A stretch of DNA of 64,000 bases. Source: Leptasterias polaris. Its lineage: Eukaryota > Echinodermata > Asteroidea > Forcipulatida > Asteriidae. The DNA is taken from assembly GCA_037783415.1 (NCBI GenBank), contig JAZGTN010000064.1, positions 620,001-684,000 of the forward strand, read 5' to 3'. The notes below the pieces were generated by a model. It worked only from the letters and a program-made list of their open reading frames with translations, was not told the DNA's origin and made no database searches. Shown one piece after another: positions 32,014 through 55,242 of this stretch. A program made the position numbers and the translations under genes. Numbering within the stretch: the first letter of the stretch is position 1; every line of letters begins with the position of its first letter.

Positions 32014-32742
32014 CACCGGATAAAGTTTTTTTTTTAGTGAGTTCTAACATCCCCGGTTTCCTCATCACCCCAAACAACCCTACCCCTTCTCTAACAAACC
32101 CACCCTCCCTTTCTTCCGTGAAGATGCATAAAAACATCAAAGATTGGGTCAGTTTTAACCATCGCTTTGACTGTTTGAAAAAACGGAGCTCCAAAAACAA
32201 CATCCAAACAGTCATGGGATGATTTATTAACAGAGACCACACCGAAAACATGTGTTTTCCTTTTCAACCTCTCCCGTTCTCTGCCCTTTTTCGTTTGCTG
32301 GCTACCACCCGATCCAGCTTCGAATTTCCCGCACCATCATACACACAGCGCTACATGGGCTGTTTCTCACGCCCTCCATCCTATCTCCCCCCACCCCCTT
32401 TAACCAACACCTGTTTTCCTTTTGGCCCCCTCTAAACCCCCCCCCCCCCCACCAATCACTTTAAGAACTATACACTTGACGCCTCTTGCGTTTTTTAAAG
32501 CTTTAGTCTCCATACTTGATTCTCCATCGACATGGGAGAATTGTTAAATATTCAACCTAAAGCTTTTTGAACACTTTGAGTGCATTCCGGTCCTAATATT
32601 TTCCTTGCATGCCCGTCTCTAAAACTCTCTATATGATGCACATATCTAATACCATCAAAATATTTTTTTGTGGTCATACTAGTCTCATCTCATGGTCTGA
32701 TACACAGCTGCATGTATGATTCGCTTTTCCCCTTACACACAT
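32014..32742 (+). repeat. 720-bp direct repeat, copy 1
   Basis: Starts CACCGGATAAAG and ends CCCCTTACACACAT. Nearly identical to 44,101-44,820 in the same orientation (differences mainly in homopolymer lengths). It interrupts a satellite monomer at its outer edge (after GTGAAGAAAAA). Contains pyrimidine-rich tracts and a C run at about 32,437-32,450. It is LTR-like in layout, but the ends are not TG...CA. Confidence 0.92.
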
Positions 32743-34232: not shown

Positions 34233-34257
34233 CAACGGTATGGTGTTCTAAAGGCGA

Positions 34258-34616
34258 CAGATGTGCGTCGCGTCGTGCCGTCGCGTCGCCTATTCCGTCG
34301 TCCGTCGCGTCGTGCGTCGCGTCGTGCCTTCGCCCGTCGCGTCGTGCCGTCGCCCGTCGCGTCGCCTGTTTTTCAATTGATTTGCATGGTGACTTGGACA
34401 TCCGTCGTCCGTCGCGTCGTGCCGTCGTCCGTCGCGTCGTGCCGTCGCGTCGTCCGTCGCGTCGCCCGTCGCGTCGTCCGTCGTCCGTCGCGTCGTGCCG
34501 TCGTCCGTCGCGTCGTGCCGTCGCGTCGCCCGTCGTCCGTCGCGTCGTGCCGTCGCGTCGCCCGTCGCGTCGCCCGTCGCGTCGCCCGTCGCGTCGTCCG
34601 TCGCGTCGCCCGTCGC
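34258..34616 (+). repeat. Left CGTCG-rich subterminal array
   Basis: Irregular mixture of 5- and 8-10-bp units such as GTCGCGTCGTGCC, GTCGTCC and GTCGCCC, with CGTCG as the constant core and very high CpG density. It is interrupted once by CGCCTGTTTTTCAATTG and 30 bp of ordinary DNA. Arg-rich ORFs here (RRPSRRP-type) are artefacts of the repeat. Confidence 0.95.
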
Positions 34617-36416
34617 CCTATATATAATTGTGCCTCCTGGTGGCGCTGCAAGAGACTGTGCATCATGGTACAGTTCAAAAACTAATGACTTTTTCAGTGG
34701 CACTCTTGTCCATGTACTTGTGAAATGATGACAGACGTATGATGTTGTTTTTGTGTGGTTGAAGTGTCATTGTGAATCGAAAATAACCCCTAAGTTCCGA
34801 GCTTCCGAGGGAGCTATCAGAGCAAGTTACCGATGGAAATGTATGGCACATTATTAATGTTATACACCGTTTTCAAGTTTTCTCAACGTGATTTGTTTCT
34901 TGTAATGTGTCACTTCGTGTAACGTTACTCTCTATTGTGTGATCCATAACTATGTCACTTCTAGAAATCTCACACATGTTAACAATTCAAAGATGAAACC
35001 GTCAATTTGGAAAAGGCCGTTCAGGCCAAATGAAAGGTATCAGTTAATAAACCTGCTAAATATTGACATGACTAGTGACAGATAAATCATACTCGACCAT
35101 TGTGTCACTCCGTAATTTATTGCCCAATCAGTATTGAAATGAACATTACAAGTGAATGCTTACAAATTAATTTATCATCAAGTTAGAAACACCAAGGACT
35201 CATGACCATGTATTTTGTTTTAATGTTAGAAACACCAAGGACTCATGACCATGTATTTTTGTTTAATGGTTTGGTGTTAAACAAAGATTTTTTGTCTTTG
35301 CCTCCTTTTTGCATAATTGTTGCTACTTATGAACTTTCAGGCTTGCGAAAGGCGATATATTAATCCGTTGTCATTACAAATATTATTGATATTACATATT
35401 TTAAGATAAACGGGCCAATTACCACTTTAATCACTACTACATGTACTCTGGTAAATTAACTCTTCTGTCATAAATTATGGCATATTATTATTTACTGTGA
35501 AAAAGGCATGCACACATAACTTCTGTTTAAAAAAGAAAAAAACAAAACAATGGGAAATGCCCGAAAGTAACAAACTTACTATTTCCAGCCAGTAATTCTA
35601 TTTGAATATTCGCCATGAAAATTTACTTTATTAATGAACACTAGTTAATTTTATCACCTTTTTCTTCCGAAACATTTCTCATCGTTAGAGAAGTTTACTC
35701 CTTCCCACTCAAAGTTTAAACAGGGAAGGATGTAACAATAATTATCTGTTTGGTTTAAATTTGGTGTGAGAGTTTGTTGATGTAATTTTACTTCTTGTGT
35801 TTACTGCTAGAGGAAGTTTCTCCCTTTTGATGGCTTATTATGTAACAGGTCCAGAAAAACCGTGTTCAGTAGACCACGGAGAGACAAGTGTCTAATATGT
35901 TCCCTTCCACTGTTTATTCCAACTTAATCTCTTGAAGCACCCTGGTACAAGTTCATTTCAAGGAATCGTCTGTAATAAACAACCCTCTTGTTTAATCCTT
36001 AATCCTCAAGTAGTGGTAATTAAGTCACCCATTAAATGTATTATAGTTTACAGATAGCAGCCGGTGTGTTCTCCCACCATCACTTCTTTGATTTTATGTA
36101 CTGGTGGTTTTTCATGTTTTTAAGTTTTGCCTGTTTCAACTTTCAACTTGTCATTACTGCTATGGACTCGATTTTAGAGCCATTTTGTTTTTAATTTGTA
36201 ACCTTCCTTGGTGTTTTGTTGTTTTTAGTGGTTTTTATAAATCCTGTTAGTTCAGTAGTGTTACTGTTGGTCTTGGTTTAGAATTCACTTGATTTATTGC
36301 TTTACATGGTTTTGCTTTTGGTCATCGCTTCATAATCAATAAAGTAATTTTTCATCGCTTTATAATCAATAAAGTAATTTTGTGCAAGCCCACCAACCAT
36401 GTGGATAATAATTTAG
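34617..36416. other. Gene-free AT-rich interior
   Basis: No recognisable gene. Contains two adjacent copies of a ~40-bp unit (GTTAGAAACACCAAGGACTC, 35,186-35,265) and two copies of a ~30-bp unit with CAATAAAGTAATTTT near 36,320-36,380, next to the LINE start. Confidence 0.6.
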
Positions 36417-36640
36417 GTAAATTTCGATCTCAAGAACTGGAGACCGATTAGCCTTTTAAATGTAGATTACAAACTGTTGGCCAAAGTTCTCACAAATAGG
36501 TTAAAAAAAGGCCATGCCTTTCATAATAGGTGACGAACAGACATGTGGTGTACCGGGGAGAAAAATTCACGACAACCTCACACTTTTGCGTGATAGCATA
36601 GATTATATTAATTGGAACAATAAGGAAGCAGCTATTTTAA

Positions 36641-37000
36641 AGGCCCTGTACACTATTGGTAAGATCGAAAAACACAAATGTTCACAGATTCACACATACT
36701 AACTTACATGATTTAAAGTAATTAATGGTAGAAAGGGTTCTTTAAAATATTTCTGCCTAAAATGCTATCGTTTCTGAGAAATGAGTAAAACAATAGTCTT
36801 TATCGCGCGCGATAATAAACTCGATGTTTGAAAAACAGAAAACACATAAGGTCTCTTTTCACTATTTTCTCGTAACCTCGATGACCAATTGAGCTCAAAT
36901 TTTCACAGGTTTGTTATTTCATGTATGTGGTTGATTACACAAAACATGAACACTGTCTGTGATTATTTTGTCAGCTCTGCCAATCCTGTATATAATACAT
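36641..37000. mobile_element. 360-bp TTAA-flanked MITE
   Basis: TTAA at 36,637-36,640 and 37,001-37,004. The left end AGGCCCTGTACACTATTGGT resembles a MITE family I associate with echinoderm DNA; the interior GAGCTCAAATTTTCACAGG also fits. The right end is degenerate. It splits the LINE RT between AAIL and SINQEKAFD. Confidence 0.7.
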
Positions 37001-37099
37001 TTAAGTATCAATCAGGAGAAGGCTTTCGATAGAATTAATTGGAATTATATGTTTACCATGCTTGAGAAAATGGGGATTCCCCCCAAATTAATTCAATTT

Positions 37100-37450
37100 A
37101 CAGCATTTAAAGTTGCATAAAAAGGTAAATATTTGAAAATGGCGGCCATTTTGGACGCCATCTTGGTTTTATATACTAATGGGTTCTAAAATTTCAAAAT
37201 AATGGTTTTATTGGATTCCTTGTGCCTCAAAACCTATATTTAGACACTTTATTTGTTTTTACAGCATATCTGGTTGCATAGGTATGATGAGATTTGAAAA
37301 TGGCGGCCATTTTGGACGCCATCTTGGATTTCGGAAAGAGCTCCAGGGGGATTTTAGGGAACTTTTAGTATGTCATTCTAGACACATTCCCGGACCTATC
37401 CTGAAAAAATCAGCTTGTTATGAGCTATATCCGGGTTAAAGCTTATGCTC
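37100..37450. repeat. Insertion with two ~158-bp tandem units
   Basis: Both units carry TTTACAGCAT, GTTGCATA and then GAAAATGGCGGCCATTTTGG followed by ACGCCATCTTGG (37,133-37,165 and 37,291-37,325). The block breaks the LINE coding between LIQF and the next RT motif. Exact ends unclear. Confidence 0.65.
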
Positions 37451-38050
37451 TTGGCCTATATCGGACAAAAAAGGGTGTCCCCTGTCTCCATTGTTATATG
37501 CAGTCTGTGCAGAAGGTTTAGGAACTCTAATTAGAATCAATAATGGTTGCATGGTATTCAGTGTCCAGGTGGAACTGAATGTGTTAAAATTATCCAGCAT
37601 GCCGATGATGCCACGGTTTTTATTTCTAAAGAAAGTGACTTGAAGTCATTACGGATGTTTTGTATAATTAATATTGTAAAGGTAGCGGATCTAAGGTAAA
37701 CACAAGTAAAACCTCGGGTCTATGGCTTGGCAAATAGAAGAACAGAATGGACAAGCCGTGTGGCTTCAACTGGAACAATAATAAATTGAAAATTTTGGGT
37801 CTTCTTTTTGGAAACAATGTTACACCGGCTGACAACTGGGACCCCGGAATAAGCAAACTTAAATGCATGTTAAATATGTTTAGACAGCGGGACCTGACTG
37901 ACTCTGACGGGCAAGGCCGTTATTGTGAACGTCATGGTCGGAAGCAGACTAAATTATGTGGGTAACATTGTCTCTTGCCCGGAAGAGTGTGTAAAGAAAA
38001 TAGAAAACATTATTTTTAGTTTTTACTGGTCAGGTAAACCGGACAAAATC

Positions 38051-38772
38051 TAGACTTGATTCAAGTCCCTTTCTCGTGCGAGGTTCCTAACGTAACGCGC
38101 CAGCATGCGCATGCAGCCCCAGAATACCAGTGCGCCCTCACCGACAAAATGTAGTTATTTATGCGGTGGCGATCAAGGGACTTGACGGGGTCGTTTCCTA
38201 CTCCACGCATTTGAATAGAAAAATCTCCCCAAATGGGGAGATGTACAAATCCAATGGGAGCGTGGAAGTGCCGCCCCTTTCATTTAGTATTCATCTTGCT
38301 CTGTGACGTTTGTATCATGTATCTATGGACGTAAGCATCTCCAGAATGGCTGCCGGGCGGAAGAGGGGGGTGGGTGTTTTAAGTCGCTGAATTGCATTTG
38401 TCAACAATTCAAAGTATGCATTTGCAAACAATACCAATCCCAATGTATACGTAATATTAACTTGAATTCAAATAAATTTGTAGTTTTTATATATATTCAT
38501 GCATTTCGATCCTCGACAAAGTACTTTACCACCCCCGCAAATAAAAAAATCAACGAGTCTTCTTTTTGAACGCGTTTGATTGGACAACAAGTAATGCGCC
38601 ATAACTTTGCATATTCGTAAGTGAATAAATTTACATATCAGGCAACTGCGGGTTCGTCAAGTCCCTGTCCCGCGCGCGGAACAGGTTGGGGAATGCAGAG
38701 CGCAAAATAATAGTTTTCTGACGATGAGGCAAGGAAGGGCCTTGCACGGGATTGGGACTTGAGTCAAGTCTA
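38051..38772. mobile_element. 722-bp TIR element with palindromic tips
   Basis: Tips TAGACTTGATTCAAGTCCC and GGGACTTGAGTCAAGTCTA, each tip near-palindromic. Flanked by GACAAAATC at 38,042-38,050 and 38,773-38,781. It splits the LINE between the codons for DK and KRATITGPR. Similar in size and tip structure to the element at 5,199-5,947. No transposase. Confidence 0.82.
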
Positions 38773-38983
38773 GACAAAATCAAGCGTGCCACTATCACCG
38801 GACCTCGATACATGGGAGGGACAGGTCTTTTGGACGTCAGGGTCACTCCAGGTTACGCAGTCTAAAACTGATGTGGTTGAGTAATTATATCAAAAGTAAT
38901 GGTAAATGGAAATCCTTCTTTAACTATTGGATCGAGAAACCCGGCGAAAGCCATAATCTTGGTTGGTATGTGTTTGGTAAAAC

Positions 38984-39891
38984 CAGTGTTGTATGACTCG
39001 AGTCCAGGACTCGGACTCGAGTCCGTCTCGAGTCACAATTTCGGTGACTCGGACTTGACTCGAGTCACGTCTGCAAAAGACTCGGACTCGGACTCGGACT
39101 CGACTATCATGACTCGGACTTGTCCCCGAGGACTCGTGACTCGAGTCACGTATTTTCACAAACAATACCTTTTTAAAATATTAAAAACAATTCCGATGAT
39201 CCGATCGTCATTCCCGGAGTGCCCATGGAGTTAACGTCTAGCACAATAAATAAGTACACTGTCGTATGGTGTTGCAAGTAATAGTGTTCGTGATTATTGT
39301 GTAGATGGCCGGCCATCTACGTACAGCGCGTGTATGTTCGATTCGTACATGTATGTTCAATACGCATAATAACACTGGGATGCACGACACCAGTATAATG
39401 CTGGTATTCTGTCAACGTTAACACCATAGCCACTGCTTGTGCTTGGTGCATATTACCAGGGAAATGGCATGTCTGGTACCTGTAAAACACAGCCTGCATA
39501 TTGCACTGTGATGGCTGTGTGTAATTGTTTGCACCAGTTTCTACACATGGTCGACACACACACACGACGTCAAGTTTGGTCACGTCACTAGTAAAAAGTA
39601 GTACAACATTTTTGTAATCATGGCATCTGCCGTTCCGCCCCGTATTGTTTCTTTTGGTTATACCAACTTTAACAAAAACTTTAACAGAACTTTGTTTAAA
39701 ATAAATGTGTTTTATTTTGTCATTTCCAATTCTTATTTTACGACATTTGGTTTGCAATCAATATTTAAACAAGTGACTCGTGACTCGGAATCGGACTCGG
39801 ACCAAGTGACTCGTGACTCGGACTCGGACTCGACCCAAGTGACTTGAGACTCGGACTCGGACTCGACACAGGTGACTCGACTACAACACTG
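38984..39891. mobile_element. 908-bp hAT-type non-autonomous element
   Basis: Ends CAGTGTTGTA and TACAACACTG, flanked by an exact 8-bp duplication GGTAAAAC (38,976-38,983 and 39,892-39,899). The 8-bp duplication and CAGTG tip are hAT hallmarks. Inside both tips are arrays of GACTCGAGTC / GGACTCGGACTC motifs (38,995-39,150 and 39,770-39,880). It interrupts the LINE inside the codons for GKT. Confidence 0.9.
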
Positions 39892-40139
39892 GGTAAAACC
39901 AAGAAAAAGTCACTGCAGACCACTCCCATATATATGGACCTTTTTGCAGCCTACGAAAAATCAGGGGGTGTTTTCAGACCAGAATTCACCTCAGTTTTGG
40001 AAGTAATGAATATCCCTCTCTGGCATAATTCAGTGGTTACGATTAATAAGGATAAAGATTTAGCGAGTCCTGTTTTAACAAAGAATAACATCATCAAATT
40101 TCAACATGTTGTTAAAAATAACAGACTAATTACCTTTAA

Positions 40140-41115
40140 AGGCACCTGGAAATAGATTTTTTTTTTTTTTTAAATATAAGAGTATATGTATATTAACAAT
40201 AAAACAATTTTTTGAGTAATTGTTTGTTAGTATTTATATGTTAAAAAAATAGATAAAGTTGTTTGGGGGCGACTCCGCCCATCCCTTTTTGTGACGTCAA
40301 TCGAGGAAGACTTCGCCTCGATTGAACATCGACCCCACTCGAACTTGCCTGCATTTACGTTGTATATACACGTGCAAGTAGTGAGATTGTACGTTTCGTT
40401 TGGTTATCCAAAAGGGGGGTTTTTCTTGCATTTTTCCAGCGAAAATTGCTGCTGGATGCAGCAAAACGACTAAAGATGGGGTCAGCCAGCATTTTTTTCC
40501 TGCAGATCCCAAATATAGGCAGTTACGGGCATCGAAAATTAGGCTAACGAGGGCAAAGTGGTCCGGTCCGACGTCGTTTTCAGCGCTATGCAGCGAACAC
40601 TTGGATAGCCCGGGGATTTTTTCGTTGGTAGTAGTGTGCAAGGGAAGTTGCAGTGAAGCTTAGGTTACCAGCGAAATGTTTCTGGTGGAAAAACAATACC
40701 TCGTATTATCCGTGTTCTCGTTATGACCATGCTCGTATCTTCCGTTTTTAAGACATTGAAACGCGCATGGGACAGTTCGGGACCGGTGAAAAACCTCGTA
40801 TAAACTGGCGTCTCGTATATAAGTCGACTGTACACTGTCCTAGGATTGCATTGGGTGGTGACGTCCGAATACGAAAACGCATCATACTGATCAGGTACCC
40901 AGACGTAATGTACGGGGCCAGACTACACATTTTCTCCTGCCTCGATTGACGTCACGAACAGCGCCATGTAAAGGGGGGCCTATTTTTTAATTTGTAATTA
41001 AAAGAAAAATACAATTTTTTAACCTTAGCAAATTGTTTATTCACATTCCACTCATAAAAATGTATATATTAATGACAAAAGCTTTATTTTGAAAAAATAC
41101 CACTGCCAGGTGCCT
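40140..41115. mobile_element. 976-bp TTAA-flanked element with a THAP-like exon
   Basis: Tips AGGCACCTGG and CCAGGTGCCT, flanked by TTAA (40,136-40,139 and 41,116-41,119). It interrupts the LINE between ITFK and ELAKK. TTAA target choice is shared by piggyBac and Kolobok elements; the AGG tip and THAP-like coding favour a Kolobok-type relic (family knowledge plus inference). Confidence 0.85.
40400..40663 (+). pseudogene. Degenerate THAP-type zinc finger fragment
   Basis: The frame reads GCSKTTKDGVSQHFFPADPK, YRQLRASKIRLTRAKWSGPT and SFSALCSEHLDSPGIFSL. This follows the C2CH THAP order: first Cys region, Phe-Pro, a Trp in the middle, then C-x2-H (CSEH) and a terminal aromatic. The first Cys of the leading pair is replaced by Ala (AAGCS), and there is no transposase downstream. 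THAP domains bind DNA and are found at the N-terminus of P-type and some Kolobok transposases as well as host proteins. Confidence 0.65.
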
Positions 41116-42232
41116 TTAAGGAATTGGCTAAGAAGTGTAAAATTAATCGTATCAGTGCTGGACGCATAGCTAAACGTCTTGAACAAAACATCAATCCTGT
41201 CCTCTTCAAAGAAAAACGTTGTGGGCCTAATAACCATCCAAGCAGGTGGCTGAAGTTCCAATATTGAAATTGACGATGGGGATCAGGGTTTGGTACCCTT
41301 TTCTAAAGTTACCACGAAATTAATGTACAAATCATTGAAGGTCAAAGAATTTGTTTTTCCAAAAGCACAGGAAAAGTGGGCCTCGATTTTAGGCCTCACT
41401 GAAGTTCGACTGGGCCAATATTTGGACCAAATTAAACATGAACAATATTATGGACGCCAAAGACAAGGATACCCTTTTTAGACTTTATCACAGGATTCTG
41501 CCAACCCGAGATAAACTTAAACGCATGAAAATCATAGATACAGTCGACTGTCCTTTCTGTAAATCCGACACTGAAACTGTCGAACACTTGTTTCTATACT
41601 GTAATGAGGTAGTTGAACCCTGGTTATACGTCGAATTTTTAATTAGGAAACAAACTGGCTGCCGTTTCTTTTGTCTCAGTGATTGTATAAGAATTTTATG
41701 TATGAATTTGTCATTTGTATCTATGATAATTGTTGGCATGATGATCAATGTTATTTGGAGAATCCGGTGTGATCTGGTCTTCAATGAGGACAACGTTTTC
41801 ACAAACACAAACATTATCAAGACCTGCAAAGAAACTCTCAGATCATTTCTACTAAGGGAGAGGACTATAGGCTCCAAACAAGTAATTTTAACAAATTGTA
41901 CAAATTCCTGTGTACTTTCAATGAAGACGAGAGTCCAAAATTTATGTTCTGATCAAAATCGAATTTTGTCACCTCTCATATCTGTCCTTTGTGTACGCCT
42001 TAATTTGCTTTTTTCATGTTTTGATCTTGCCTTTGTTTGATATGTAATATCAACTTTTGTTCATTGTCCTTTAGTTTCTAGTAACCTATATGTACTTGTG
42101 TACTGATCTATCAGTAATTGCTTTAATGTTCCATAGGAGATGTATATACTTGTAATTACTTGAGTTGAATAAACGGAGTCTATAAACACTCAAAATAAAA
42201 AAAAATAAAAAAATAAAAATAATAATAATTAA

Positions 42233-42535
42233 GGTAGTATTTTTCCTACGATGCTGCTGTTGACATTGCTTTATTTTACAGGCTAGTAGGCATGGTAGGG
42301 AGGCCGAGGTAGTAAAAACTAATACTTGACATGTTTTTACAATTAAAATGATATTGTTGAGATGACACGGCAAGCAGGGATTGATCAAACTATACACATC
42401 TGCCATCTAGAATCTCGATAACCTCATCAGACTCACTTCGAATACGAGTATGGCGGAAATAATCAAAGAGCGCCACCAATTGACAGAAAAGTGAAGAACG
42501 TTTTGGCGAAATATTGAAGGTCCAAATCAATTGAA
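42233..42535. other. Gene-free spacer before the right array
   Basis: From 42,380 to 42,535 this sequence (GATCAAACTATACACATCTG onward) is repeated at 42,860-43,015 with one or two differences, part of a ~480-bp duplication of the right subterminal region. Confidence 0.75.
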
Positions 42536-43280
42536 AAACAGGCGACGCGACGGACGACGCGACGGCACGACGCGACGGACGACGGGCGACGCGACGGCAC
42601 GACGCGACGGACGACGGGCGACGCGACGGCACGACACGACGAACGACGGACGACGGACGACGCGACGGACGACGCGACGGGCGACGCGACGGACGACGCG
42701 ACGGACGATGCGACGGCACGACGCGACGGACAACGGCAAGACGCGACGGACGACATAAGTCAAAACCACCATTCAAATCAATTGAAAAACAGGCGACGCC
42801 GCGGGCGACGGCACGACGCGACGCACGACGCGACGGACGACGGAATAGGCGATTTGATTGATCAAACTATACACATCTGCCATCTAGAATCTCGATAACC
42901 TCATCAGACTCACTTCGAATACGAGTATGGCGGAGATAATCAAAGAGCGCCACCAATTGACAGAAAAGTGAAGAACGTTTTGGCGAAATATTGAAGGTCC
43001 AAATCAATTGAAAAACAGGCGACGCGACGGACGACGCGACGGCACGACGCGACGGACGACGGGCGACGGACGATGCGACGGCACGACGCGACGGACGACG
43101 GCAAGACGCGACGGACGACATAAGTCAAAACCACCATTCAAATCAATTGAAAAACAGGCGACGCGGCGGGCGACGGCACGACGCGACGCACGACGCGAGG
43201 GGCGACGGCACGACGCGACGCACGACGCGACGGACGACGGAATAGGCGACGCGACGGCACGACGCGACGCATATCTGTCG
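42536..43280 (-). repeat. Right CGTCG-rich subterminal arrays, segmentally duplicated
   Basis: Mirror image of the left array (GACGCGACGGACGACG-type). Separated into blocks by CAATTGAAAAACAGGCGACG (42,530, 42,780, 43,008, 43,145) and by two copies of a ~155-bp unique segment (42,380 and 42,860). This indicates unequal exchange within the end region. Confidence 0.93.
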
Positions 43281-43302
43281 CCTTTAGAACACCATACAAC
43301 GG

Positions 43303-44100
43303 ACATCAAATCTGGGCGGTGTCACATCACATGCGCAGGCGCATAACATTATGTTGTTGGATGGTCTGTCAGTTGTCGGGTTTTTAAACGATTGCAAACC
43401 ACCAATGATCGTTGCAACTCTATCGTCCTTAATGCCAAAACATCAAACTAAAACTGCTTAGGACTTTATTGTTGCAACTATGTCAAAAAGACTTAACAGA
43501 GGCAAAACACTTGAAATGATGACTGGCAATTTGATAAGTCCACTCTCTCTCGTAAAATAACCAAAACGAAAAATTGAAAACGAGAGAATGGATTTTCTTC
43601 AACAAAAAGCCACTAAAAGTCAACAGTTTGTCTATACTCTGTCTGACAACAAATTGTCTTTGTTGGAAACGATTGCTCTAGGACGAGGTTTGTACCACCT
43701 CTGTTGGACTATACCACACACAAAGAGCTTCAAAGACAAAACATTTCGGGCTAGATTACAAGTTTCAACCCATGATAACTCAAAGATTTGGATGAACGGT
43801 ACTTGCAAATCCTGCTTGAATTACTAGTGGGAACAACAGTCGGGTACACAACTTAAAAGAACAGCATGGCTCGAATCAAAGTTGAGATTACGTAAGCTAT
43901 AAACAAACAAAAACACTAATCTCTCTTAGTCTCTTTGCCTACATAAGTTATACAGGGATCACACTTCGTTGCAAAACATTACTAGAAAGGATGTAAAAGC
44001 TAAAAATGGTGACTGATAAAGTGCAGCTTATAAAATGCACAGAAAATATGTTTTGAGCCCCTCCATTAAAGGAACAAACAAAAGAGGCTCAACATATTAT
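43303..44100 (+). other. Unassigned region with a coding-like ORF
   Basis: Frame at 43,478-43,830 reads SKRLNRGKTLEMMTGNLISP, a stop, then MDFLQQKATKSQQFVYTLSD, NKLSLLETIALGRGLYHLCW and TIPHTKSFKDKTFRARLQVS. The amino-acid pattern looks protein-like, but I recognise no family. It may be the continuation of the decayed coding region at 32,743-34,232, now separated by the 9.06-kb insertion. Confidence 0.3.
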
Positions 44101-44820
44101 CACCGGATAAAGTTTTTTTTTAGTGAGTTCTAACATCCCTTTCCTCATCACCCCAAACAACCCTACCCCTTCTCTAACAAACCCACCCTCCCTTTCTTCC
44201 GTGAAGATGCATAAAAACATCAAAGATTGGGTCAGTTTTAACCATCGCTTTGACTGTTTGAAAAAAACGGAGCTCCAAAAACAACATCCAAACAGTCATG
44301 GGATGATTTATTAACAGAGACCACACAGAAAACATGTGTTTTCCTTTTCAACCTCTCCCGTTCTCTGCCCTTTTTCGTTTGCTGGCTACCACCCGATCCA
44401 GCTTCGAATTTCCCGCACCATCATACACACAGCGCTACATGGGCTGTTTCTCACGCCCTCCATCCTATCTCCCCCCCACCCCCTTTAACCAACACCTGTT
44501 TTCCCTTTGGCCCCCTCTAAACCCCCCCACCAATCACTTTAAGAACTATACACTTGACGCCCCTTGCGTTTTTTAAAGCTTTAGTCTCCATACTTGATTC
44601 TCCATCAACATGGGAGAATTGTTAAATATTCAACCTAAAGTTTTTTGAACACTTTGAGTGCATTCCGGTCCTAATATTTTCCTTGCATGCCCGTCTCTAA
44701 AACTCTCTATATGATGCACATATCTAATACCATCAACATGTTTTTTTGTGGTCATACAAGTCTCATCTCATGGTCTGATACACAGCTGCATGTATGATTC
44801 GCTTTTCCCCTTACACACAT
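44101..44820 (+). repeat. 720-bp direct repeat, copy 2
   Basis: Near-identical to 32,014-32,742. At its right edge it joins a satellite monomer mid-unit (ATACTTTGTCACAGTAAATT). The copies differ by the C-run length and a few substitutions. Confidence 0.92.
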
Positions 44821-45235
44821 ATACTTTGTCACAGTAAATTCGCATACGGGCTGTATTAGGCAATTGTGTAATTATTTGGGCTGAGTTAATTAGTGGGTTA
44901 ATTAATTGGGGGCGCCCAGGCATAATGGTTTGGGATGTATTGAAGACATCTGTGAAGAAAAACCTGAAGAATTTATCATTTTTCGATGACAACTTTTCAA
45001 ATGAAATTTAAGTAGTTGCGTGTTTAACCATAGACTTTGTTACAGTACTTTCGCAAACGGGCTATATTTTGCATTTGTTTAATTAGCTGGGCTGAGTTAT
45101 TTAGTGGGTTAATTAATTGGGGGCGCCTAGGCATAATGGTTTGGGATATAAGGAAGACAACTGTGAAGAAAAAATGAAGATTTTATGTTTTTTCGATGAC
45201 AACTTTTCAAATGAAAATTCGAGAATTCGCGATTT
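44821..45235 (-). repeat. Two inverted satellite monomers near the right end
   Basis: Same ~212-bp monomer, reversed, ending at AAATTCGAGAATTCGCG, which is also the junction motif in the 3.0-kb element (48,583-48,600 and 50,905-50,925). Confidence 0.9.
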
Positions 45236-45357
45236 CGTTCACACTGTCAACGACCGTCATAGGCCGTCGTTTTTTGAAATTTGGTGCTGGCACTAAATTT
45301 ATCGCCAGCAACAAATTTGGTGCTGGCACCAAATTTAGTGCTCACTTCAGTCTGGTG

Positions 45358-47800
45358 TGTATATAGGGGCTAGATCACGTCGAAGACCCCGTGACAAAAA
45401 TCTATCGTATGTTTTAGACGACCAAATAAACGATTTTTTTTTCAAACAGATAAATAATATTATAATTAGAAAAAAATAATGTTTGAATCTTGGTTTTGTA
45501 TTCCTCCCATTCATTCGTGAAATTAGGCTCTTTTATTTCTCTAAAAAGACCGGCCGCTTGGTTCGCCAAAGCACAACGTACGGGCTGGCAAGGCATGCAT
45601 TCGGTAGCGATCTATATGATACGTTCACAGGTCTCGATGTGGGAGCTGAATGGGCTCGATTCTACAAAGCACTAAGGTCCATCTTTTAAGATTAGTTTTC
45701 AGTACCATAGTGATTTGTATTCTGACATCCCACTTTGCTTAGCAATTGAGACTGATTTGCATTAAAGATCAATCTTAGCTCTTTGTGAAGTTGAGCCCAT
45801 CCAGATCACGCCACTTCCTGAATGAGTTATAGAGTGTTTATGTGACCTTCGTTTGAATTCACCTTTGAACAAAAATGTTTGTCACAATTTGCTGCCGATC
45901 CATAAAGCAAATTTTCGTATCGGGTTGATCCGTATGTCTTGTGACTGAGTGAATTGTCGTGCTTTTAGCTAGCATTCTGCACCCCTGTGTACCGAAATGG
46001 TGTCACGAAGGTACACAAAGGACCACTTTATTTGACGGTGACATGTCTGCGGTTTTCGGTGGCAGGAGTTGCTGGACATTTAAATGTTTTAACTGAATAA
46101 TCAGAGTAAAATGTCCACTTAGTCCATGTTTATATCCCACTTTCAAATGTGTCGTATAAACTATGTCATGCGTATAGGTCTGTTTTTGCCGAAAACGACG
46201 ACTTGTAGTACGAGTTATAGTCATTCGTACATTACGTCTATGACCGTTTTGCCATCTAAACGGACGAATAAAACAAGCACGCAAAGCAACAATGTGAACA
46301 ACTAAGATTTTGTAAATTTCTTACCTGACTCCTCCAACGTGCCAAGAGATATACATAAACAATACGTCTGGTATACACGACAAGTTTAGCTGAACGTCTT
46401 AGAAGCAGCACATTAAGTTGTTACAATTGAACCACCAAATCTGTATACATCAGTACGGCAATGCTGAACGGTAGGATGTTGTATACCTTGCGATACCTAG
46501 CATGCCGTTGCTATAAACCCTGACACTACATACATCAGAGCCACTGGGGTTAAGTTACTTTACTCATGTATGTCATTAATAAATAATGAGACTCCCTCCA
46601 TTTCGGCTGCAACATAGTGGTAGCCGCGACTTCCTCCGTCAAGCATTTATTCCACATGATATCACACAGGAGAATGCACCCTGAAATCTTCGACCTGCTG
46701 CCAACAAATCGATAAAGTCCTGCACTTCCTGCGGATAACACATAGTATGCGCGATATTGACGGCATCGTAAAGGATTGTTTTACACGTAATTACAGTCCA
46801 ATTGTATGTCTTATCCGAGATTCTATGACTACCTACCTGTTGAGTTTTACCATCTAAGGCACATGGCATTGTCATAACGACAACATTAATTGCAAGATAT
46901 CAGGCAAGAACACAGATTTGGAATAGGACATGCAGATGAAGTGGCCTCACAATGTATTAACAATTCAACAAAAACCTGTCCGGCGCATTACATTAACTTA
47001 ATAATGACCTGTGATGATATCATGGGAATTGTCATGAAACACCAATGGTCATTTTAGATTTCTGTAAAAAACGATTGTAGGGATGTAGAGGCATTGGTGT
47101 TTGTCTCCAAAGTAGAGCTTGGGAAATAGCTTTCCCTTCAACTCCCAAATTCTACCACATGACTCAAAGTCATGGAATACTTATTCGACACCCGGCTACA
47201 GTTTCGTCTACTTGTTAGGTTTCGAAAGATTTGTTGTGGGTCTTGCAAGTACATAAACTAATATACATTTCTGATTGTGCAGAAAATGTCACTTTTAGTC
47301 TGACTTTCACATACTCAATTACTTTCAAATTTCCGAATGAGCAATTCTATTAACTAAAACACTTAGTTGAATATGGTTGAACACATTGTGAGTTTGAAAA
47401 AAAGATACAACACTGTATGATGATGTTGTATTTTTTGTATTTGAAGAGATCAAAGGCAACTGTAGATAGAGAAGCAAGTTTGATTTCGACCTAACGTACT
47501 TTCAACTGTGTCTTTGAGGTCAAAGAACAATTCATCAATTGAAGCCATGTTCATATTCTCTACCACTTTGGCTCTAGAGCTCATCAAATCTCCTTGCGAA
47601 TATTATTCAATGAACTTCTGGTTTTCTCATTGAACTTCCGGTTTGCACCGTGAAATTGAGGTGAAGTAAATTAATGTATTTTTGTTTTTTGTCTTTCAAA
47701 ACTAATCCGACGATTGTAAAAAGAAAATTTATGTTAGTGTGTAGTTCACGAGTTTTTATATCTTGGAACATTAATACTTTGATTTAGTCTCACTAGCAAT
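45358..47800. other. Gene-poor stretch
   Basis: No gene recognised. The minus ORF at 46,639-46,875 (MTMPCALDGKTQQ, then a GTAGGT donor-like site; also TILYDAVNIAHTMCYPQEVQ) has protein-like composition but no family I can name. The plus ORF at 45,483-45,689 is similarly unplaced. Confidence 0.4.
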
Positions 47801-47804
47801 TTAC

Positions 47805-48190
47805 CCGGAATACAGATCTGGATACAGAGATCTGGAAGTAATTGTGAAGTTGGGCTACAGAACTGGAAGTATGTGTGAAGTCGGGTTTACATCTGAATGT
47901 GAGGTTGGATACATTATCTGGAAGTATATGAAGTTGGGTTACAGAACTGGAAGTACGTGTGAGGTTGGATAAGATCTGAAAGTACGTGTGAAGTTGGGTA
48001 CATATCTGAATGTGAAGTTGGGTTACAGAACTGGAAGTATGTGTGAGGTTGGATAAGATCTGAAAGTACGTGTGAAGTTGGGTACATATCTGAATGTGAA
48101 GTTGGGTTACAGAACTGGAAGTATGTGTGAGGTTGGATCAGATCTAAAAGTACACGTGTGAAGTTGGGCACAGATCTGCAAGTATGTGTG
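47805..48190. repeat. 28-bp minisatellite with 84-bp higher-order period
   Basis: Units of the type GTGTGAAGTTGGGTACAGAT plus CTGGAAGTA. The string ACAGAACTGG recurs at 47,941, 48,025 and 48,109, exactly 84 bp apart, that is three 28-bp subunits. It directly abuts the left tip of the next element. Confidence 0.92.
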
Positions 48191-48224
48191 AAGTATATGG
48201 TGTTCCATATGTGCTACTCGTGTC

Positions 48225-48490
48225 CGTCGCGTTTTCATTTTGTCCGTCGCGTTTTCATTTTGTCCGTCGCGTTTTCAATTTTGTCCGTCGCGTTTTCAAT
48301 TTTGTCCGTCGCGTTTTCAATTTTGTCCGTCGCGTTTTCAATTTTGTCCGTCGTGTTTTCAATTTTGTCCGTCGCGTTTTCAATTTTGTCCGTCGCGTTT
48401 TCAATTTTGTCCGTCGCGTTTTCAATTTTGTCCGTCGCGTTTTCAATTTTGTCCGTCGCGTTTTCAATTTTGTCCGTCGCGTTTTCAATT
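48225..48490 (+). repeat. Left 21-bp CGTCG tandem array
   Basis: About 12-13 copies of a 21-bp unit GTCCGTCGCGTTTTCAA plus TTTT, extremely regular (one T for C change at about 48,352). The first two units are shorter. Period divisible by three keeps all frames open; ORFs there are artefacts. Confidence 0.97.
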
Positions 48491-49734
48491 TTTCTTGCTG
48501 GCGAGAAATTTAGTGCCAGCACCAAATTTCTAAAAACATTGTCAACGACCGTCATGGGCCGTCGTTGACAGTGTGAACGAAATCGCGAATTCTCGAATTT
48601 TTATTTGAAAAGTTGTCATCGAAAAATCATAAAACCTTAAGTTTTTTCTTCAAAGATGTCTTCCTTATATCCCAAACCATCATGCCTAGGCGCCCCCAAT
48701 TAATTAACCTACTAATTAACTCAGCCCAATTAATTTAACAATTGCATAAATTAGCACGTTTGCGAATTTACTATTTAACGTCCGGAAGAAACACGCAATT
48801 TTCATTTGAAAAGTTGTCATCGAAAAAACATAATATCTTAAATGTTTCTTTACAGTTGTCTTCCTTATATCCCAAACCATCATGCCTAGGCGCCCCCATT
48901 TAATTAACCCACTTATTAACTCAGCCCAACTAATTGAACATTTGCATAACATAGCCCGTTTGCGAATTACTGATAAGTTTGTTATATAAATCTTCACGCA
49001 CAGACACCCCTGTAATTGATGCAGGTCCGTACTTTCTGCTAGCTGCAGAGTTGATTTCTTTAATCTCAATGATGCTGTAAATAAAGAAGAAACCAATTTA
49101 ATCTTTTAAAACCCTGTCATGAGCCCAGTGTCCTCCTACGATGAAGATGTTACTGACTGCGAGTGGGAAAATCAAAATAATCACCGAAACCCATTCCTTC
49201 ATAAACATGTTGGATCTGAAAACATGAATTTATCTAATTACTCGCACCAAAAGTGATTTCCCAGATTAATCTGTTGAAATCAATCTTCTAGACTTGCCTA
49301 TGCTTTTCCACAATTTCATAAAACCACACTTGCCATCTTTAGAAAATATTTATTTTCAGAATACAAGTTGACATAAACACATTAAATATCAAGTAAAAGG
49401 TTACATATTTCATTTACCGTTTTTTTCTTTTTCTTTTAGCAAACATTTGTTTTCCTAATGAACAAACATTGACTATATAAAACACACTGTCAGGAACCTC
49501 ACACACATGCAATCGGGGAACTTCTAATTATCCTGTTTTTGATTGTACAACATTTTTTTCGGCAGCATCTCCAATTTTTTAAAGCACACTTTTGAACTGA
49601 GGACCCTTTATACTCAACCGGGGACCAAAATTATTGTCCTCTTTTGTTATAATATCCCCGGTTTGAATGTGTATACCTACACCTATGTCCACACACAAAC
49701 TTTACTACAAACGAAAAACCCAAGTTCTATAACA

Positions 49735-50172
49735 TTTGCAAATTACTGAGTGACCTGGGCCCAATTTCATAGAGCTGCTTAAGCCCAAGAAGTAGCTTAG
49801 CACAAGAAAATTTGGTACAGGTAAAAACTAAAACCATTCGATTTACAACAACATTTCCTATTTTTGTTGTTTTTATCACAAACTGACGGATGGTTTTAAA
49901 CATATGCATTGCCATTAATTGTTTAACAGCTAGTAAGCCCAACTGATGGAGTCACATTTTAACATCAGATAAATTAACCTTAAATTGTTGTTCATATTCT
50001 CAGAGGTTAACAATTACATTTCTTATCAAACCATATGTTATTTGTCTTCGTACTCTGTTCAGGGTTATCAATCATGATGCATTGAGACTTGGAAACTGGA
50101 TACTCCTGGTATCATATTAATTCTCAACAACAGATCTTTGTAACTTGTTAATTTCCCTTTACACCTCACATA
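49735..50172. mobile_element. ~440-bp insertion in the core, with GGGCCCAATTTC end
   Basis: Absent from the otherwise matching core at 29,331-30,175 (empty site at TTCTATAAC / AATAATATAAACATTAC). Contains GGGCCCAATTTCATAGAGCT then GCTTAAGC near 49,757, an end I associate with a common echinoderm MITE. The other end is not clear. Confidence 0.6.
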
Positions 50173-51049
50173 TAATATATTAACATTACTCTTTCATATC
50201 ACAAGAAAGTGCCACTTACGTCCTTAACAAACAATGTTAACCAACAAATCAAAAATAAAACTACTTCTGCAACAATTCATATCTACGACAGTTTTAACCC
50301 ATCAAAACCATTGGCTTGGAGAAAGGGAGACTCCTGTGATATAGACTAGCTCATACAATCTTACATTAAGCCACTATAAGCACGCTGACATTGGCCTAAA
50401 AGTTATTGAAATAGTATGAAAAAAACTCTTTTCCTGATATCAAGATCATGTCCTAAACCAGCACATGATTTTTCGATGACAACTTTTCAAAAATCAAAAT
50501 AAGGTAGTTGCGTGTTTAACCATAGAATTTGTTACAGTCAATTCGCATACAGGCTATATTTTGCGATTGTTTAATTAGTTGGGCTGAGTTAATTAGTAGG
50601 TTAATTAAATGGGGGCGCCTATGCATAATGGTTTGGGATATAAGGAAGACAACTGTAAAGAAACATTTAAGATATTATGTTTTTTCGATGACAACTTTTC
50701 AAATGAAAATTGCGTGTTTCTTCCGGACGTTAAATAGTAAATTCGCAAACGTGCTAATTTATGCAATTGTTAAATTAATTGGGCTGAGTTAATTAGTAGG
50801 TTAATTAATTGGGGGCGCCTAGGCATGATGGTTTGGGATATAAGGAAGACATCTTTGAAGAAAAAAACTTAAGGTTTTATGATTTTTCGATGACAACTTT
50901 TCAAATGAAAATTCGAGAATTCGCGATTTCGTTCACACTGTCAACGACGGCCCATGACGGTCGTTGACAATGTTTTTAGAAATTTGGTGTTGGCACTAAA
51001 TTTCTCGCCAGCAACAAATTTGGTGCTGGCACCAAATGAAAAGGCGACG

Positions 51050-51205
51050 GAAAAAATTGAAAACGCGACGGAAAAAATTGAAAACGCGACGGAAATAATT
51101 GAAAACGCGACGGAAAAAATTGAAAACGCGACGGACAAAATTGAAAACGCGACGGACAAAATTGAAAACGCGACGGACAAAATTGAAAACGCGACGGACA
51201 AAAAT
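51050..51205 (-). repeat. Right 21-bp CGTCG tandem array
   Basis: Mirror of 48,225-48,490: units AAAATTGAAAACGCGACGG with GAAA or GACA variants; the GAAA variants cluster on the inner side. Confidence 0.95.
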
Positions 51206-51269
51206 GAAAATGGAGTGGCACATAATTATGGAACACCATACTCAACAGCCATCAGAAGTTTCTGTACCA

Positions 51270-52110
51270 TGCATCGTCGTGAGTATCAGACCCACTCCTC
51301 CAGTTGCTGCATTGCTTGAGTTGCGCCTTGTTGCTGCAGTTTAAAGTGTCCAAGCTCAGTCTTACGGAGTTGATCTCATCTTCCCTCCCTTCCTTGTGGT
51401 CTAGGCTATGCTCCCGCAAGCCACAGACTTCGATCCCCTATTTCTTCATATTCCAAGCTAGCTCCTCAGTCTTTAAAGCACCCCACCCTTCGCCCATCAT
51501 GGGGTTGAACGTCCGGATATTTTAGGTCGCATTTGACAGCTGCCCCCCGCCGTCCGTCTATCAAAACCATTCCACTGGGTGGGTTTGGGGCAACAACTTC
51601 ATCGACTCCGGCCCCTTGAAGTATACGATTTGCGTTTCCTGTGTACACTGGTCGGGACGCCACCTCTCTAGCCAGGCCCCTTCTTGCCGTTTTCGTTACG
51701 GGAGGGTTTTTGTGGTCAGAGTTGTCCTTCTCCTATAGGCAGATTGCTGACTTAGGCTAACAAGGTTTCAGCCTACCTGGGTTTGTGATCAGAATAGTCC
51801 TTCTCCTAGGTGGACTGGCAACCAAGTCTTACGAGCTCCACCTACCCGGAGCAACCTGGTTATAGTGCCAGGAACATGCCTACACCATCTGCCATTTAGT
51901 AGAAATAGGGTTGGCACGAGAAGCCCGACAGGATTTAATTAGTAGAAGCTAATGATGAGGCGCCGTGCTCTACAATGAGACACTTCTGTGAGAAAGGAGC
52001 AGCTCAACTCTCTATTCCACCCCAGCACATCCCCGTTTAACCCCCTACAAGTTTTTTCAACTAAAATAATTGGACCTGTAAGACCAGTGCCTGTCTTTAT
52101 CCTTGCGGAT
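51270..52110 (-). mobile_element. Probable LINE 5' region fragment
   Basis: GC-richer than its flanks. Contains two AGTCCTTCTCCTA-like repeats (about 51,724 and 51,806) and the minus ORF at 51,466-51,663 (NPPSGMVLIDGRRGAAVKCD). It resembles untranslated leader DNA of RTE-type LINEs, but no endonuclease or RT coding is present. Identification tentative. Confidence 0.3.
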
Positions 52111-53030
52111 AAAGATCGAGAGGGGACCGGACACAAAGTCTGTTATGCGCTCAGTAATGAAACACTTAACAGATTTTAACCTAATCTTTCTTCAGTTTGT
52201 TAGTGAAGTCAACACGGTTTGAGAAACACAGTCGGCGTAAAATCTTCATTTTCTCATTAGTTTCCGTATTTTATTTATTTCATTTTTATTTATTACATTG
52301 ATTGTAAGTTTAAAATGTAATAATTCCACCGATATGTTTTGGGGTGGGAAAAAAGGTGACGTGATAAAAATTAAAATTGCATAAAATTGCACCGCGTTAA
52401 TCTCTCTTAGCTGATGGCTCAGAGGTGCCTTTTCATCGCGAGACTTACACGGTCTTTTGCAAAATCCAATGCCATGTGGCTTTTCTTATCACGCTGTAAA
52501 AAGAAAATCGTGTAGCGCCGGTTATAACACGGTAATTGTGTATTTATCACGTGATGTGCTATTATGTTCAAAGACGCATGTACATGGCTCAGAGAAACAC
52601 GACGTAGACTACGTGCCCCATGGGGTATATTACACTGACGTGCCCATCGTTGGTCAAGCGCCTTGCATAATATTAGCCCCGGGTATGAGGTTGTAATTAC
52701 GCTGGTGCTTGATAAATTGATTTACATTCCTTTGTGATGTGCCGTAGGAAGCAATGAAGAAATCGTTCGTCACTGTTCGTCTCTGTTTTTTAACTGTGCC
52801 AATAATAACAGCAGATCACCTCCTGTTTCAAAGATCAGAAATTTAATCTTCGGCCAAAGTTCTTTCAATAAAATAAGGTAATTTTCTGTTGAAATGTTTA
52901 TTCAACTAAACAGCGGAATGCAATGTTCAACAACAAATTAATAAAGAAATAAAATTGATTTCACTTTATAATGTTTGTTTTCCCCCCTACAATCTATTAC
53001 CATGGTATAACTAAATTGTTGTATGCTGTT
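52111..53030. other. Gene-free stretch
   Basis: AT-rich DNA with no recognised gene. The ORF at 52,457-52,696 (SYHAVKRKSCSAGYNTVIVY) has no family that I can name. Confidence 0.45.
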
Positions 53031-54246
53031 GCAGGGAACCCCAAAGCGACCAGTGTGTTCATGTGTCTAATAATCCAACTTTGTGATTAACATACTTACA
53101 ATGAAAAGTTAAGTTGGTGGTCGCGCCCTTTAGGCTCACTCTCTTTTTACATTTTAGCTTTGAGCAAGAGAAAACAAATTTATTTTCAGGATGTATTTTT
53201 CTCTAGTTGGCCATGCTCCAGATACTATTCATTAGGGAGGGATAGGGTCCTAGAGCTCTCTGTGGGTATTGTTTGGTATTCAATTCATCATTTTATTCCA
53301 GAAATATTGTCATTTTTAGGGCTACTTATCGGGTCTTTGTAAAATTGTATGTGTATGTAGCTAGCCTTGTGTTGACCTTTCGCCCAAAGTGACTGTGTTA
53401 ATGCTATTTTGTTTTGTTTAGTATTGGAGAATTAAAATCAGTACAGGAGATTATTTTAAACTTTCGACGTCACCATTAGGATGTAGCTTTTGGTGTATTT
53501 TGGTGAATGCTCGTCCTATAATGTAGGGAACCCAAGTGCGCCCTCAGTGTTCAAGTGTGTAATCCAACTTTTGTGATTTACATAATAACACTAAAAAGTT
53601 AACTTTGGGGTCGCAATTCCTTTGGGCTCATTTTGTTTTCCATTTGTAGCTTTGAGCAAGAGAGAGCACAATATTTTCTGTCTGTATTTCTCTCCATTTC
53701 TTTTTTTTTGGGGGGGAGGCATGCTCCAAATACTATTCAGATAGTGTCCTAGAACTCTCTGTGAGTATTGCTTTGTATTCAAATCATCCTATTCCAGAAA
53801 TATTGTAATTTTTAGGGCTATTTGAATGGGTATATTATTGTATATTGTAAGTGTGTGTGTGTGAGTAGGTAACCACATTCAAACCGGGACCTATAACAAA
53901 AGAGGACAATAGGTCCACGGTTGCTATCACAAAGGAAAGCATTGTGGTCCACGGTTGCTATCACAAAGAGTTGAACAAAGGAGGGTCCACGATTGCAGGC
54001 TGTTACACACTTGGGTGTGCGTGTTCTTACACATGCGGGGTACTTTTAACAATGGAACAATGGACCCCACAAGGTAATTTCAATAGGAACAAAATTGGGC
54101 CCACAAGGAAATTCTTCAGAAAAGGGAATAATAGAACAATAGCAGTAGCCCACAAACCGGATTTGTGTGGGTGGGTGTGTGTGTGAGATAGCCAGCCTCG
54201 TGTTGTGCTGACCTTTTGCCCTTCACACTTAGTGACTGTGCTTCTA
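53030..54246. repeat. Diverged ~490-bp tandem duplication
   Basis: 53,034-53,440 and 53,526-53,850 (plus 54,180-54,246) share GGGAACCC, AATCCAACTTT, TTTGAGCAAGAGA, CATGCTCCAGATACTATTCA, AGAGCTCTCTGTGGGTATTG and CAGAAATATTGTCATTTTTA. The second copy is interrupted at 53,865-54,180 by DNA containing TATAACAAAAGAGGACAATA (reverse match to the core at 29,810-29,850) and repeated GTCCACGGTTGCTATCACAA. Confidence 0.75.
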
Positions 54247-55242
54247 CTGTTAAAACCATATCTGGCGTCGTGCGTCGTGCGTCGTGCGTCGTGCGCCGTA
54301 CGTCGTGCATCGTGCATCGTGTGTCGTGCATCGTGCGCCGTACGTCGTGCGTCGTGCGCCGTGCGTCATGCGTCGTGCGTCGTGCGTCGTCCGTCGCCCG
54401 TCGCCGTCGTGCGTCGTGCATGCCTCCTCCAAATTATCCCACGTTGAATTTTATTTTTTGGGGCAAAAATAACACTTGGTTTGAAAATAATAACCTTGTC
54501 GTATTAAATAAGTACTGTAAATAAATAAATAAAACTCAGCGGTAGATTGTATTTCTAGGCATAACTCATAATTATTGTGCACAACCATGACAACAGGCCT
54601 TGTAAGTTGTATTGTAATATTTCTGTCTGTTACATGTACACGATATCACAAATCAGACCCCGGACATACCATAGTAACGTTGAACTGATGCAGTAAATAC
54701 TCATGTTAGATTCCTTAATAGTTTGAACGAGATGAACTTATTCAGCATTATTTTGATGCCGGATACACATACAGTGAAATTTGTTGTATACTGAAGCTTC
54801 GACATGACTTGAATTGCAGGTAGGTGCACACAAGACTTTAGAAAAGTGTTTTATTAGCACAATAAATAGTGCTGATATGCTGGACTACCTGAAATCCTTG
54901 GCCCTATCCCCCTGGCACCAAAAAAAATAAATAAAATAAAAATATAAAAAAATCTGAAATTGGCAAACCAAGTGTTATTTTTGCCCCCAAAAATAAAATT
55001 CAACGTGGGATAATTTGGTGGGAGGCACGACGCACGACGGGCGACGGGCGACGGACGACGCACGACGAAAAATGGCATATATGGAACTGACATATGGCAG
55101 ACATGGGATACAATAAAGAGCAAGAGGCGACGGACGACGGGCGACGGGCGACGGACGACGCACGACGGGCGACGGGCGACGGACGACGCACGACGGGCGA
55201 CGCACGACGGGCGACGGGCGACGGCAGATATGGAACACCATA
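54247..55242. mobile_element. 1.0-kb CGTCG-array element
   Basis: The right tip TATGGAACACCATA (55,229-55,242) equals that of the 3.0-kb element; the left tip is degraded to CCATATCTG. Subterminal arrays: left 54,269-54,418 (GTCGTGCGTCGTGC), right 55,025-55,225 (GGGCGACGGACGACGC). Next, inside, a ~75-bp inverted pair (CAAATTATCCCACGTTGAAT at about 54,429 and its complement ending about 55,017). The middle (54,500-54,955) is gene-free. Deletion derivative of the same group as 34,239-43,296. Confidence 0.72.

Follow-up and report, generated by a model that had tools for sequence, protein, structure and literature searches.

The elements and their ends

The stretch of Leptasterias polaris DNA considered here (the window, 64,000 nucleotides; assembly GCA_037783415.1, contig JAZGTN010000064.1, positions 620,001 to 684,000) holds three mobile elements of 9.06, 3.05 and about 1 kb which share the terminal sequence TATGGTGTTC (the tip) and carry arrays of short repeats built on the word CGTCG. 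A search of the window for exact and one-mismatch copies of the tip, compared with shuffled sequence, placed exact copies at 34239 (+), 43287 (-), 48196 (+), 51231 (-) and 55233 (-), and a CGTCG array lies directly inward of all five. Five extra sites with one mismatch are about what shuffling yields (4.95 matches altogether when one mismatch is allowed).

The 9.06-kb element (34239..43296, + strand; group A, tip TATGGTGTTCTAAAGGCGACAGAT) is bounded by exact tips at 34239..34248 (+) and 43287..43296 (-) and by a target-site duplication (TSD), CAACGG, identical at all six bases between 34233..34238 and 43297..43302, as had been claimed for one member. Its left array (34266..34618, +) holds 48 CGTCG and 0 CGACG, and its right array or arrays, which are interrupted (42543..43271, -), give 64 CGACG and 0 CGTCG in 42540-43296; these and the other arrays of the window were delimited with Tandem Repeats Finder (TRF). 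An open reading frame (ORF) at 41438..42040 (+) is a fragment of a non-LTR retrotransposon (Pfam zf-RVT, 6.9e-10). The element has block homology with a 4.6-kb relative elsewhere in the genome (L009), and the blocks that the relative does not have are most simply read as later insertions.

The 3.05-kb element (48196..51240, +; group B, tip TATGGTGTTCCATATGTG) also has both 10-base tips exact, and the sequence just inside its right tip (51231..51240, -) is altered (TATGGTGTTCCATAATTATGTGCC; CCATAATTATGTGCC). A clean 21-mer, TGTCCGTCGCGTTTTCAATTT, makes up its arrays, with 13 copies on the left (48221..48492, +; 13 CGTCG, 0 CGACG) and eight on the right (51037..51210, -; 8 CGACG, 0 CGTCG), and long blocks of it are 92-97% identical to elements nested in two other loci, L014 and L017. 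The third element (54256..55242, +; group C, tip TATGGTGTTCCATATCTGCCGTCG) has a GTCGTGC-type 7-mer array on the left (54265..54419, +; 14 CGTCG, 0 CGACG), a right array in an inner part (55025..55067, -) and an outer part of 7-mers (55126..55224, -), with 20 CGACG and 0 CGTCG in the entire right arm, and an exact right tip at 55233..55242 (-). At its left end TATGGTGTTC is gone and a remnant, CCATATCTGGCGTCG, is left at 54256-54270. An earlier note on this DNA had described one tip, followed by CATA, as common to all three elements: the tip is exact at the five ends listed and missing from the left end of the 1-kb element, whose proposed start at 54,247 is not supported, and CATA follows it in the 3-kb and 1-kb elements and not in the 9-kb element, which has TAAAGGCGACAG.

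Distribution across the genome

The genome (629.7 Mb in 334 contigs) was searched with patterns from these ends, using reversed patterns as controls. With three mismatches allowed, TATGGTGTTCTAAAGGCGACAG, the 22 terminal bases of the 9-kb type, finds 467 matches (control 0); with one allowed, TATGGTGTTCCATATNTG, the 18-base end of the 3-kb and 1-kb types, finds 1033 (control 8). The tip with CGTCG and another GTCG behind it, a combination close to the one that the earlier note had proposed looking for, gives 887 overlapping matches (control 1). Additional tip types appear among the tip-plus-array matches (TAAAGACGACAGGTCGCG, CAAAGACGACAGATCG and CATACTGCCGTCG), and many of the listed TATGGTGTTCCATATNTG matches form close facing pairs. 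The window elements are thus members of a large group of DNA transposons, as their common tip had suggested. Group B is largely made up of short copies (17 of the 20 fetched measure 388-852 bp), which are high-copy, non-coding and bounded by inverted repeats and hence fall in the structural class of miniature inverted-repeat transposable elements. A product of chance or of assembly might have been suspected from the missing left tip of the 1-kb element and the low complexity of the arrays; the probability left to it is negligible, being refuted by the 467 near-exact 22-base ends spread over many contigs with none in the control.

Complete copies were sampled as facing tip pairs among the first 100 matches listed for each search, giving 36 elements, two of them nested, which reduce to 31 when grouped by flank (one host-repeat flank is common to five loci, and a second flank to L014 and L017). 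Exact TSDs of 6 bp flank 21 of these paired copies, six more match at five of six bases, and nine have none by this rule, although one of the nine (L009) has an exact 5-bp match. Other exact lengths are rare in the sample, with one of 5 and one of 3, the latter falling within a 6. Among the 16 distinct exact TSDs the first base is C or G in 14 and the sixth in 15. At L014 a group B element with the TSD CTAGTG lies inside a group A element with the TSD TACTAC, both exact and 6 bp long. Two elements, L035 and the one nested in L017, have reverse-complement flanks in place of a direct duplication (ATTACGTTTAAC / GTTAAACGTAAT; CTAGTG / CACTAG), which points to an inversion or to copies having recombined with each other.

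Polarity of the CGTCG arrays

The left arrays of the three window elements together hold 75 CGTCG (48+13+14) and 0 CGACG, and the right arrays 92 CGACG (64+8+20) and 0 CGTCG; the remaining 61,950 bp of the window contain 45 of the two words together. The same mirror arrangement is found across the genome, where the outer 450 bp of the 36 paired elements (half the element where it is shorter) contain 695 CGTCG to 2 CGACG in the left arms and 670 CGACG to 6 CGTCG in the right arms. The spacing of the word follows no such rule: it is mostly 5, 7 or 8 bp in the 9-kb element, 21 bp in the 3-kb and 7 bp in the 1-kb, and a locus with another tip type (L085) has a 6-bp unit. Mirror-image arrays with a different unit in each element, as first described for the window, therefore hold for the group as a whole, and these counts strongly support the idea that what is constant across families is the word CGTCG and not the repeat unit. 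Of 308 group B units from the 20 fetched loci, whose copies are not independent, 249 end in an intact CCGTCGCC, and changes are uneven between the two CpGs; a reading by methylation decay was considered. In a sample biased by the fact that most loci were picked by their tip, arrays mostly occur together with it: of 37 distinct runs that are complete within their locus, 33 have a tip with at most one mismatch, and 18 further runs, cut by the end of their locus, were set aside.

The arrays might instead be simple satellites, expanded after insertion by replication slippage and dispensable for transposition. Tandem arrays in mobile elements are common in the oyster, according to the available part of that study (PMC8268682), and copies of one amplified insertion with identical flanks differ in total length (442, 547, 610 and 652 bp), much of the difference between two of them (L032 and L034) sitting in the left array. 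Because of these length differences the arrays do seem to lengthen and shorten by slippage, while their direction and word stay. Near-perfect mirror polarity in families with unrelated units is, however, not expected from independent slippage, and the position of the array just inside the tip is constant; passive expansion is accordingly a doubtful account of the arrays, though one that keeps some weight. The retained word and direction would rather point to selection on the word, and the arrays are read here as putative polar, multimerised transposase-binding sites.

One locus departs from the usual layout. In L020 (C41:3415083-3424000) two group A ends stand back to back at 284-301 with 16 bp between them, and at 5256-6533 arrays of 51 CGACG and then 101 CGTCG meet head to head at a junction free of tips, an arrangement that the fusion of two copies by way of the arrays would give.

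A candidate transposase in longer members

A longer member carrying a transposase, as envisaged in the earlier note, was found on two contigs. An 11.7-kb element (C6:15184268-15196015, covered by the fetched loci L086 and L087) has tips at both ends, arrays and the TSD CGCTGG, and is the 37th element of the set; the other spans 13.4 kb (C17:653929-667291), of which the first 9.1 kb was read (L021). The queries were the sequence of an rva_4 transposase and the C-terminal part of L093, an rva_4 gene of this genome, with reversed queries as control. Both elements have + strand pieces that match them and follow one another in one order, containing HVDQHDKL, MDRGTEN, RIERFWR and L(L/I)QSELDEVR, with best E-values of 2.8e-8 and 1.4e-8, the reversed queries reaching no better than 0.25. 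In alignment with a relative, HVDQHDKL contains the first D, MDRGTEN the second D and RIERFWR the E of an integrase core. The Pfam rva_4 profile (integrase core) matches five of the seven pieces in profile order, at 2-32 (4.1e-4) and 101-140 (2e-4) for C6 and at 1-32 (7.5e-5), 104-141 (1.1e-4) and 141-173 (0.025) for C17. The exons are short and the gene is split over several of them in both elements. The two elements thus hold exons of an integrase-like transposase in which the D, D and E motifs are present; these exons make up a candidate gene, and this candidate presumably mobilises the window elements.

A genome search with the C6 exon gives 63 matches (all 74 candidates scored), including itself, the C17 element, three places on contig C33 at 75% and many rva_4 genes; the exon is 56% identical (3e-15) to single-exon rva_4 genes on contigs C2 and C11. 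The three copies on C33 (near 359873, 488079 and 591362) have identical scores and are possibly further helper elements. The probe that led to this family matches rva_4 at 3.3e-88 and also has a helix-turn-helix match, and the rva_4 profile gives 100 matches in the genome (all 127 candidates scored) and none in 14 control genomes. Contig C58 accounts for 22 of the 100 listed matches.

At the C2 rva_4 gene, the sequence beyond the stop codon reads ...GGCTCCACCATA, where TATGGTGG stands in inverted form with its end 58 bp past that codon. The 22-mer TATGGTGGAGCCGAGGATGGAA, taken from this inverted-tip site, occurs at 39 places in the genome (control 0), including four rva_4 loci (C2, C11, C58 and C175) where it lies 277-298 bp past the domain (295 bp for C2 and C11), and is likely to be the element end of the C2 and C11 genes.

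Two other routes to the transposase were abandoned. The IS481 transposase profile was swamped by Gypsy-like integrases (68 of 1575 candidates scored): the four fetched of the 68 scored candidates are Gypsy integrase-like, with an HHCC-type finger by eye, and three of the four have ADALSR upstream. A DNA pattern encoding the peptide QSQGSVERA found two identical matches, of which the one fetched (L092) is without a long ORF, and they were put down to chance.

Placement among known transposons

The available sections of the published descriptions give IS3EU elements TA..TA termini without exception, a TSD usually of 6 bp and a transposase without the HHCC motif (Kojima, PMC10045372), and give the fungal TET+ IS3EU elements the ends TAYGG..CCRTA with a 6-bp TSD (PMC12730594). 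The ends of all 36 paired copies, which were picked on the tip, read TATGG..CCATA, the duplications tabulated above are of the IS3EU length in most copies and at C6, and the exons that follow one another in the C6 and C17 elements and carry the D, D and E motifs are of the integrase-core DDE type. By termini, TSD length and type of transposase the group would therefore belong to the IS3EU superfamily, with rva_4 as the presumed IS3EU transposase. The earlier note had not been able to place the group in a named superfamily, and this is now answered in part, by agreement of termini and 6-bp TSD with what is available of the IS3EU description (PMC10045372, PMC12730594). The group may still prove to be an already named repeat family, since the comparison with IS3EU was made by published description.

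A separate lineage of DNA transposons with an integrase-like transposase, related to IS3EU and outside it, would share with that superfamily five terminal bases and a TSD length. The equation of rva_4 with the IS3EU transposase being inferential and the exon matches weak individually, such a lineage deserves mention; yet termini and TSD both obey the IS3EU rule as given in the available text (PMC10045372, PMC12730594) and the transposase is an integrase-type enzyme, as in IS3EU, so that a lineage of its own is unlikely. Two further systems share the 6-bp duplication, Polintons (PMC10045372) and the hAT6 group (PMC12730594), as far as the available text of these sources goes. Non-autonomous relics of Polinton/Maverick elements would also account for an integrase-like gene, but 17 of the 20 fetched group B copies are below 1 kb, and no Polinton gene was noticed among the listed ORFs (no profile search aimed at Polinton genes was made). 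Polinton termini start with AG and the tips of the present group with TATGG, which leaves an origin as Polinton relics very improbable. The hAT tip consensus does not resemble TATGG either, and hAT6 was set aside although its TSD length fits. A paper on coral miniature elements (PMC2872659) concerns, in its available part, TTAA elements and tandem arrays of whole elements, not the same system.

In the available portions of the literature on IS3EU/GingerRoot elements, TA..TA termini (TAYGG..CCRTA in the fungal TET+ set), 6-bp TSDs and an integrase-like DDE transposase in longer members are shared with the group, whereas the group differs by its long polar CGTCG arrays, its exon-split transposase gene and its cargo of retrotransposons and satellites. 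Neither CGTCG arrays nor the way in which IS3EU ends are recognised were found described in the available parts of five papers on this superfamily (PMC10045372, PMC12730594, PMC8268682, PMC5844308, PMC10853768).

Cargo and neighbouring features

The retrotransposon cargo was followed by tblastn with the zf-RVT ORF of the window and the reverse transcriptases (RTs) of L016 and L012 against 17 group A loci, L086 and L087 counting as one. Retrotransposon fragments are present in 14 of the 17, the zf-RVT cargo of the window recurring in 13 and the fourteenth having the RT part only; none were found by tblastn in L014, L015 and L017. Pfam RVT_1 or zf-RVT is matched in L009, L012, L016, L019 and the window. 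In all nine group A loci with unlike ends (ATGTG and ATATG) the retrotransposon runs from the ATGTG end, a uniform direction most simply explained by one capture that then spread. The 11.7-kb C6 element also carries retrotransposon pieces, so that group A forms of 8 kb and less could descend from a C6-like element that lost its transposase half. Within the retrotransposon cargo of the 9-kb element, a roughly 1-kb insert at 40138-41117 has inverted ends AAAGGCACCTGG / CCAGGTGCCTTT and is not in L009.

The interior of the 3-kb element is different in kind. Two repeats of about 200 bp at 48584..48968 (+) are kin to a 15-copy satellite at 25982-29265 with a unit of about 211 bp, and have an inverted partner at 50540..50913 (-); the inverted repeat proper (48631-48968 / 50540-50877) is 95% identical over 338 nt. 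Besides the satellite, the 211-bp repeat is seen at 30710-31991, 44818-45250, 48584-48968 and 50480-50913, inverted pairs included.

Outside the CAACGG duplication, a direct repeat (32178-32742 / 44262-44820, 91-98%) flanks the region holding the 9-kb element, and CACCAGACTGAAGTGAGCACTAAATTTGGTGCC near 25830 recurs inverted near 45350; a further, larger element surrounding the 9-kb one may have this sequence as its tip. A putative fourth window element with the tips TATGGTGTCC at 12996 and 15029 was not counted, as it is without a duplication and one-mismatch tips are expected by chance, and no CGTCG array was seen at the ends of this region. In the middle of its 2 kb, at 13912-14090, a 21-bp unit around ATTATTTCGTTCCCTCGAAAT forms arrays in inverted orientation, which probably represent a foldback element of another kind. 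Two exons of a rhodopsin-family receptor, aminergic-like by eye, are found at 18211-19281 and 16116-16925 (-).

A model of end recognition

The window elements are most likely non-autonomous, cut-and-paste, IS3EU-like transposons, whose ends the candidate transposase would bind at both tip and array. Longer members would supply this integrase-like (DDE) enzyme from a gene with introns; it is predicted to recognise the TATGGTGTTC tip together with the inward-pointing CGTCG array (core CCGTCGC), docking on the directional sites of the array before cutting at the tip. Having paired both ends, it would insert the element by a 6-bp staggered cut, giving the 6-bp TSD. With recognition placed entirely within the ends the interior would be free to change, and such ends may have carried along pieces of retrotransposons, satellite repeats and short foldback cores.

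Strict array polarity and the precedent of Galileo, in whose long inverted repeats the repeated sites were proposed to be multiple binding sites for one transposase domain and may confer specificity (PMC3688188, available in part), both fit a putative role of CGTCG in transposase binding. Galileo differs in belonging to the P superfamily, in its THAP domain and in its tips, TSD length and repeat word. Ac/Ds and En/Spm likewise have short, oriented subterminal words that are bound many times by a transposition protein, but these are other superfamilies with other TSDs, and their motifs are dispersed and not in head-to-tail arrays. The TU foldback elements of sea urchins share with the group a marine invertebrate host and inverted-repeat ends made of short tandem units, and differ in an 8-bp TSD and 15-bp units; we know of no TATGGTGTTC tip in them.

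Several observations weigh against this model. The flanks of the 3-kb and 1-kb elements were checked and have no TSD, leaving two of the three window elements without one, as are nine of the 36 paired copies. In the 13.4-kb C17 element the right end lies outside the part that was read and the exon is broken, with two frames and one stop. Every rva_4 match among the transposase pieces falls below the Pfam curated cut-off, and two of the seven pieces have no Pfam match. No literature equating rva_4 with IS3EU was found. Of the 39 places with TATGGTGGAGCCGAGGATGGAA, 35 have no listed rva_4 match nearby, and the C2 and C11 rva_4 elements are known from one end, without a duplication seen. That end may moreover be ATGG and not TATGG, since the first base of TATGGTGGAGCCGAGGATGGAA differs in nine of the eleven one-mismatch copies shown, as at an element boundary. 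Finally, the binding role of CGTCG is itself a prediction from sequence.

A wider proposal may be true or false in about equal measure: that this IS3EU-like lineage gave up a fixed inverted repeat as the basis of end recognition in favour of a short tip with a polar CCGTCGC array that evolves freely, that its families have swapped the unit (5/7/8, 6, 7 or 21 bp) and kept the word, and that its ends can mobilise almost any interior, retrotransposons and satellites included.

Implications

A repeat group left unclassified in the earlier note now has a proposed name, IS3EU-like, and looks like a variant of this known class with broken retrotransposons as cargo, in which a DNA transposon spreads pieces of retrotransposons. 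Families with shared tips and different units would amount to a natural mutagenesis of a putative binding array, in which the features kept (word and direction) and those that drift (spacing, unit and count) point to a recognition rule. The presence of a candidate transposase gene inside two elements of the group would make this rule directly testable.

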